Shown: positions 13,432 through 64,000 of the stretch, piece by piece
How the letters are laid out: the number at the start of each line of letters is the position of its first letter
How positions within the stretch are numbered: position 1 is the stretch's first letter
NCBI GenBank assembly: GCA_023053545.1
Contig: JAKZAN010000005.1
Coordinates: 8,990,001 to 9,054,000 of the forward strand
Source of the DNA: Lepidurus packardi
Taxonomy: Eukaryota > Arthropoda > Branchiopoda > Notostraca > Triopsidae
Direction of reading: 5' to 3'
DNA: 64,000 nucleotides
Translations under genes and position numbers: made by a program
Notes under the pieces: model-generated
Databases searched by the model: none
The model's input: only the letters and a program-made list of their open reading frames with translations
What the model was told of the DNA's origin: nothing

Positions 13432-14358
13432 GTGGAACAACATATCCTCCTTGTCAAATTAAGAGAAAAGAAAACTTCATACGTGTCTCAAGCCCCTCTG
13501 CTCGCTACAACCAAATACAAATAATAACAAATGACAGTGCCCCTCCGAATGAATCTTTATTGGACTTTCAATGGCTTACAGTAAATGATCTTATTATTTT
13601 ATTTCTCCTTTTTCATTTCTAATTCTAAAATCACGCAAAGCTTGGCTGACCCCCCAAAACCTGGCCCTACTCTTTTGAAAGGTGTGCGAATCTTACGTGT
13701 TTTTGCCTTATTGGTGGTCTGTTTCTGTCGCTAAATACAATCGCGTTTTTTTCGGAAATTCTGTCTACTAATTATGACATTTCTAAACTTCCCAATTATT
13801 TGTACTAATTTTGGAAGGAAGCCGAAAAAGTGGTGCACGAAATTCAATCCTTACACAAAAATATTATTATATTTTCTGACGAAAAAACAGTTCACGTTTC
13901 CTTTTATCTCCGTTAAAGATTTTTACAGGATTTTTTAGTTCAAAACAATTTATCACCGCCTTTGTCGAAGTTCCTTAGGAATTAATGTACTTTAAAGTGC
14001 CTGTCCATTAGTTTCTTAAATTTACCCGTCAACGCGTTCTTTAATGTACTTCGATTTTTAATCACTACCCACGTATTTAGCTTCTACTTTCAAAGAATCT
14101 CATTAAAAGGCGTCAACTTCCAAAACCCCGCAAAACGTCACCAATTTTTCCACGATTAGCGATACCCTGCGATTAGCCACCACAAGTTCAACTACTATAC
14201 CTATATACATTATAATCAAGACAGGGCATTACTCTAGTTTTATTTAGAGGAAGCAAAGTAGTTAGTATGTTAAAATATGAAATGTTGGTGTAAAATAGTT
14301 AGAGAATTCTCAACGAAAAGTCAGCCAAGTTTCGCTTTGCTCACACTGATATTTAATT
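13432..14358. other. intergenic, nothing recognised
   Basis: AT-rich sequence after the EF-hand stop codon. No ORF with recognisable content, no repeat and no RNA gene seen. Confidence 0.5.
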
Positions 14359-14376
14359 TGACATAAGTCCAAATTA
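14359..14376. repeat. 18-bp direct repeat flanking the tRNA half, left copy
   Basis: TGACATAAGTCCAAATTA, identical to 14415-14432 and directly abutting the tRNA-derived insert. It looks like a target-site duplication. Confidence 0.9.
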
Positions 14377-14414
14377 CTACAGTCCACCGCTCTACCAACT
14401 GAGCTACCAGAGGA
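14377..14414 (-). pseudogene. inserted 5' half of tRNA-Tyr (GUA)
   Basis: On the minus strand the 38 bases are one T followed by 37 nt that match a tRNA 5' half: a seven-base acceptor strand, TAGCTCAGTTGGTAGAGC (D arm, box A), then GGTGGACTGTAG ending one base after anticodon GTA. That is position 37, where eukaryotic tRNA-Tyr introns begin. No 3' half (no GGTTCGA box B) follows within 100 bp, so it cannot be a working tRNA gene. It sits exactly between two identical 18-bp repeats. Confidence 0.85.
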
Positions 14415-14432
14415 TGACATAAGTCCAAATTA
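14415..14432. repeat. 18-bp direct repeat flanking the tRNA half, right copy
   Basis: TGACATAAGTCCAAATTA. The bases just outside both copies differ, so the duplicated segment is exactly 18 bp. Confidence 0.9.

Positions 14433-51257: not shown

Positions 51258-64000
<12,743 letters not shown>

Follow-up and report, generated by a model that had tools for sequence, protein, structure and literature searches.

A lone, leader-bearing 5' half of tRNA-Tyr inserted with a target-site duplication in Lepidurus packardi: a probable tailless tRNA retropseudogene

The 64,000-nucleotide stretch of DNA analysed here (the window, C4:8990001-9054000) carries half of a tRNA-Tyr between two identical repeats, and the question raised by this locus is how a tRNA sequence ending at an exon-intron border came to lie there. 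No tRNA was found in the window by ARAGORN or Rfam, which is no more than expected for half a tRNA. The assembly of Lepidurus packardi that was searched comprised 344 contigs (108.6 Mb). The original prediction, that a reverse-transcribed piece of tRNA had been inserted with duplication of its target, was found to be the best reading of the insert.

On the minus strand, positions 14432 to 14359 read TAATTTGGACTTATGTCA-T-CCTCTGGTAGCTCAGTTGGTAGAGCGGTGGACTGTAG-TAATTTGGACTTATGTCA, with the parts abutting without a gap (Table 1). Elsewhere in this genome are tRNA-Tyr genes with an intron after G37, and the half matches their 5' exon at 37/37 positions. The strand and extent first described for it (nucleotides 1 to 37) were upheld, as was the identity of the 18-bp flanking repeats, while the length of the duplication and the single leader base required correction. 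In the 18 tRNA-Tyr genes G37 is followed by T, the base with which the repeat also begins, and the last A of the repeat forms with the adjoining T the AT that is the usual leader end. As these T and A bases at the junctions are common to the repeat and the RNA, the duplication measures 16-18 bp and the leader 1-2 nt. In 300 shuffles of the downstream flank the length of the 18-bp repeat was never equalled (0/300).

The insert consists of 37 nt of exon from nucleotide 1 with the end of a leader, the whole 3' half being missing, and is thus 5'-complete and 3'-truncated. An A-rich tail is absent and the half directly adjoins the repeat, in agreement with the original description. The insert possesses an A box without a B box and for this reason is probably inert, or "dead on arrival". 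Its recent origin, as first proposed, is plausible given the identical repeats and the 37/37 match, 55 bases being too few for dating. No empty site or second allele was found in the assembly, a 501-bp flank query matching only itself at full length.

Table 1. Features of the tRNA-Tyr insert and of the adjoining repeat, in window coordinates
Feature	Position	Strand	Remarks
3' part of an older dispersed repeat	14213..14360	+	At least six other copies (L082-L087), 74-85% identical
3' copy of target-site duplication	14359..14376	-	First T possibly intron base 1; 1-nt overlap with parent intron
tRNA-Tyr 5' exon, nucleotides 1-37, to exon-intron border	14377..14413	-	Identical (37/37) to genes in L011-L014
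Leader base T at -1	14414..14414	-	With the A before it AT, as in 15/18 tRNA-Tyr genes
5' copy of target-site duplication	14415..14432	-	Sense of insert TAATTTGGACTTATGTCA; 18/18 identical to 14359-14376; final A possibly leader

The insertion fell at the border of the dispersed repeat listed in Table 1. A LINE-tRNA chimera involving this repeat was ruled out, as the repeat lies outside the duplication pair except for 2 bp. Its copies all stop at the same 3' end (about ...CTCACGCTGATATAATTT) but differ in where they start at the 5' side, and in four of them the similarity between copies ends within about 280 bp upstream; it looks like a 5'-truncated retroposon. Elsewhere in the window, a tandem repeat with a 252-bp unit (2.6 copies, 88% matches) occupies positions 56085-56754. 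TTAGG arrays, indicative of an arthropod, were also observed in the genome, one of them at the very end of contig C3.

Across the genome, the tRNA-Tyr 5' half was found at at least 29 places, of which 18 are genes with an intron and 11 hold the 5' half alone. All 18 genes have a 3' exon nearby, and 14 of them sit in two clusters (L012 and L013). The intron that had been anticipated after position 37 is present in these genes; it follows G37, begins with T and is 14-26 nt long in the 15 of 18 genes that were parsed, its 3' boundary being placed by the pairing of the 3' exon start ATCCATAGG with the anticodon stem. The lone halves are the window copy, L009, L010, L015, L016, L018, L019, L020, L022, L023 and a degenerate copy at C4:3524432 within the L012 cluster.

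Flanking repeats were measured as the longest exact repeat between a flank ending at most 14 nt from nucleotide 1 and the 60 bases past the exon. A repeat of at least 9 bp was found at seven of the 11 lone halves versus none of the 18 genes (P = 2e-4), with lengths of 18 bp for the window copy, 12 bp for L015, 10 bp for L010 and L020, and 9 bp for L009, L018 and L022. The search for further halves ending at position 37 and bounded by repeats, suggested in the original prediction, yielded one more in L020. An 8-bp repeat was found at L019; since repeats of this length were also found at two of the 18 true genes, an 8-bp repeat alone is no evidence of insertion. At L016, L023 and C4:3524432 (3/11) there is no duplication, the longest repeat being 3-4 bp. 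When flanks were cross-paired among 13 lone halves (ten of the 11 Tyr halves, one Leu and two Ile), repeats of at least 9 bp were found for nine of the 13 with their own flanks versus one of 156 mismatched pairs. A chance origin of the repeats was ruled out by the shuffles, by these cross-paired flanks and by the 18 true genes serving as controls. The repeats differ from copy to copy, so the lone halves do not constitute a repeat unit. Judged from their flanks, the lone tRNA-Tyr halves are insertions. Directly upstream of L016 lies a tRNA-like 3' end (GGTTTGATTCCCGGTCGAGGCA), and the two are perhaps a decayed gene pair.

The ends of the copies bear on the nature of the template. AT precedes nucleotide 1 in all 11 lone halves and in 15 of the 18 genes; the leader end was therefore probably copied, RNase P seemingly not yet having acted on the RNA. 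Repeats of at least 8 bp flank eight Tyr copies, of which four (L009, L015, L022 and L010) keep at least nine intron bases. The remnants of L015 and L022 show one difference each from a gene intron, and L010, which carries one extra C, spans an entire 14-base intron and continues into the 3' exon. The further 5-8 bases past the exon in L018 and L019 are of ambiguous origin, while in the window copy and L020 nothing follows the exon-intron border except one T that the target also supplies. L016 likewise keeps intron sequence. When the introns of 15 genes were compared, that of L011 gave a better fit than the other 14 to the remnants in L009, L010, L015 and L016; the parent intron is ambiguous for L018, L019 and L022. 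L011 (C4:11140829-11140958), the gene that best fits these four lone halves, lies outside the clusters and has the intron TGAACAAGCTTGAT.

The intron sequence kept in L009, L010, L015, L022, L016 and the isoleucine half L077 described below indicates that the templates of these copies were unspliced precursors. From their sequences, several lone copies appear to have been templated by unspliced, leader-bearing precursors truncated in the region of the anticodon loop and intron; for the window copy and L020, either such a precursor or a released 5' exon could have served. With the L011 intron and 3' exon as query, all 16 matches belonged to genes in which the 5' half is present too; no lone tRNA-Tyr 3' half was found in this genome search, from which short pieces could escape. 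This polarity, with 5' parts occurring in the absence of lone 3' parts, would be expected if reverse transcription began within an RNA and proceeded to its 5' end. One fold predicted for the L011 precursor, with hand-counted positions, would place G37 in a weak 3-bp helix, the other Tyr ends in or beside loops, and the L010 end in the anticodon stem.

Lone halves were also identified for other intron-bearing tRNAs. Seven places for tRNA-Leu-CAA comprise six intron-bearing genes and one lone half (L073), which ends in the anticodon loop and has a 15-bp repeat overlapping the RNA. Three places for the intron-bearing tRNA-Ile-TAT comprise one gene and the lone halves L077 and L078. L077 has a 12-bp repeat, and six of its bases past position 37 match the intron of the gene; the 7-bp repeat of L078 is not significant alone. 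For the intronless tRNAs examined, all four tRNA-Phe places and all nine tRNA-Thr-AGT places (with the RF00005 list) are genes, and tRNA-Lys-TTT is represented by seven genes and a fragment (L074) truncated on both sides, its 19-bp repeat being imperfect (84%). Six of the 14 rows of the Lys search were dropped, two being Lys-CTT and four being weaker rows on other contigs. No 5'-intact lone half was found for Lys-TTT, Phe or Thr-AGT. A generic D-arm pattern was found at 37 places, at which the Phe and Lys places were all genes, one place on contig C223 lying outside this check.

Halves with an intact 5' end and repeats of at least 8 bp were thus found at ten of 39 intron-bearing places (Tyr 29, Leu-CAA 7, Ile-TAT 3) versus none of 21 intronless places (Lys-TTT 8, Phe 4, Thr-AGT 9; P = 0.011), a value that becomes 0.078 when the Lys fragment L074 is counted. 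For lone halves with or without repeats the count was 13 of 39 with the cluster copy omitted (P = 0.0022, or 0.022 when the Lys fragment is counted). Clustered places are not independent in these tests, search methods differed across the tRNAs and the isotypes are few, such that a preference for intron-bearing tRNAs as sources is a hint only.

Target sites and candidate machinery were also compared. None of 11 target sites has TT before the nick or AAAA after it (the TT/AAAA motif), and no other strict motif was visible; A or T occupies position +1 after the nick in ten of the 11. At the 3' junction, target and RNA were judged by eye to overlap by 0-3 nt where this was readable. A first look with the RVT_1 profile gave 1235 candidates, of which 150 were scored, many with long open frames. 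Among ten reverse-transcriptase loci from the top of the list, seven have an open frame of 1045 aa, and the one such frame scanned contains endonuclease and reverse transcriptase domains. All ten LINE loci (L105-L114) have a poly(A) run at the 3' end. Eight of the ten lie at a like place in a satellite with a unit of about AATTCAGTCCGTAAGGAATT, and several of these copies have near-identical flanks; they may represent target-specific insertion or duplicated copies of one insertion. A poly(A)-type LINE with open frames thus appears to be available in this genome, a tie to the tRNA inserts not being evident from the sequences.

Taken with the anatomy of the insert, these results make it quite likely that the window copy is a tailless tRNA retropseudogene, derived from pre-tRNA-Tyr by target-primed reverse transcription of the LINE type. 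The template would be a pre-tRNA-Tyr transcript still bearing the end of its 5' leader, used by a LINE-type reverse transcriptase, and the template, or the priming point on it, would end in the anticodon-loop/intron region, here just past G37. The target would be nicked at AGGC/TAATTT, cDNA synthesis would proceed as far as the leader, and the flanking duplication would result from a second, staggered cut some 16-18 bp away. We infer target priming, the use of LINE machinery and a nuclear site for the insertion, and a nuclear step is indicated by the retained leader ends and introns.

Alternatively, the same target-primed route may have used a true 5' half as its template, either one left by the splicing endonuclease (leader plus 5' exon) or one cut under stress. 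In favour of such a template, the window copy and L020 both stop at G37, apart from one T that the target also has, and the weak junction overlap fits the end of a pre-cut RNA better than annealing inside an intact one. The leader-exon fragments of CLP1-mutant cells reportedly have a tyrosine pre-tRNA as their parent. Fragments of this 5' leader-exon type are known from such cells according to the cited part of PMC4052509, and tRNA halves in LINE-1 chimeras were perhaps cut before reverse transcription, in the view given by the authors in the portion of PMC13174262 considered here. Against this stand the four of eight Tyr copies with repeats of at least 8 bp that keep at least nine intron bases, with L010 entering the 3' exon, while two border ends among eight could arise by chance if ends scatter across the intron. 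If mature tRNA had been cut under stress, halves of intronless tRNAs would also be expected, but for the three isotypes searched no 5'-intact example was found. A true 5' half as template is accordingly rather unlikely. The splicing intermediate or tRNA half of the original prediction thus fails as a general explanation, on account of the copies that keep intron sequence, and is retained as a minority option for the window copy alone.

A tRNA cDNA or fragment might instead have been captured when a staggered double-strand break was repaired, with no LINE endonuclease involved. This would be consistent with the missing LINE target motif at the 11 sites, the little homology at the junctions and the extra C at L010; of the copies, only the Lys-TTT fragment L074, truncated on both sides, fits it. 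Such capture predicts mixed ends, whereas the leader is reached in all 11 lone Tyr halves, tRNA-Tyr 5' parts occur without lone 3' parts, and repeats of at least 8 bp flank eight of the 11; this explanation is improbable. In favour of a SINE unit, a decayed gene or a tandem duplication, some tRNA-derived SINEs begin with tRNA sequence, and the lone copy at C4:3524432 does lie in a tRNA-Tyr cluster. However, the flanks differ between copies and the 18-bp sequence occurs with the window copy only (one of 29 rows spanned the whole 74-base query), which rules out a tandem duplication, and perfect repeats abutting nucleotide 37 are not expected of a decayed gene. A SINE unit, the alternative that the original prediction had named against itself, was rejected: the 18-bp sequence accompanies none of the other copies, and the halves lack a common body or tail beyond the intron remnants, as well as the 3' half with the B box. 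That the window insert is a SINE unit, a decayed gene or a tandem duplication is therefore highly improbable.

Tailless retropseudogenes of therian mammals were reportedly described by Schmitz et al. in 2004. In the sections considered here of the later screen of Noll et al. 2015 (PMC5322556), the class has a nearly complete 5' end, 3' truncation, duplications of 8-35 nt and no tail; unprocessed tRNAs are among its sources, internal priming is preferred, the 3' overlap is 2-18 nt and the class is tied to relaxed LINE-1 in therians, further occurrences being given for the green anole lizard and, as eight U2 copies, for maize. For a tailless tRNA retropseudogene, the criteria were an (almost) complete 5' end, a 3' truncation of at least 10 nt, a length of at least 30 nt and a duplication of 8-35 nt. 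As far as those sections describe the mammalian class, the window insert resembles it in being 5'-complete and 3'-truncated, in lacking an A tail and in having a duplication within 8-35 nt, and the unprocessed tRNA source is also alike; the ends of the lone halves may lie near single-stranded regions, as they do in that class. In contrast to that description, the host is an arthropod, the sites lack the LINE-1-type TT/WAAAAWW consensus, and the 3' overlap of 0-3 nt is weaker. Further differences from the class as described there are that, of the six tRNAs searched, 5'-intact lone halves occur only for the three that bear introns, and that some lone halves carry intron remnants fitting one gene.

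A 2026 paper (PMC13174262) describes, in the portion considered, tRNA halves in mammalian chimeric LINE-1 insertions, which are alike in their half-length tRNA pieces, target-site duplications and tRNA-half-like breakpoints; those insertions join the half to LINE-1, whereas the repeats in the window enclose the half alone. The CLP1-mutant fragments (PMC4052509, citing Hanada et al. 2013) are by name leader plus 5' exon; they are cellular RNAs, genomic copies not being described in the cited part, while the window copy is genomic. In the part considered of an insect SINE paper (PMC3272025), tailless retropseudogenes appear only in the reference list. No report of arthropod tailless tRNA retropseudogenes was found in a literature search judged by titles and the starts of abstracts, with few subscription papers covered. 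Insertions of this kind are therefore known, and no description was found of the arthropod variant that keeps intron sequence. On its sequence, the window insert is real and appears to have arisen, probably recently, by retroposition of a tRNA-Tyr precursor that bore a leader and was truncated at its 3' end.

A wider, more tentative possibility is that intron-bearing pre-tRNAs failing or caught in splicing, including leader-5' exon halves released by the endonuclease, are preferred by the poly(A)-type LINE machinery, in which case the lone halves would be a fossil record of splicing intermediates in germ-line nuclei. Internal priming versus pre-cut RNA was decided only by default in the sections of Noll et al. 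(PMC5322556) considered; with ends in the anticodon-loop/intron region, a full catalogue of such copies could separate the two. That a tailless product occurs in an arthropod without the TT/AAAA signature suggests that untailed Pol III RNAs can be copied by other machineries as well.
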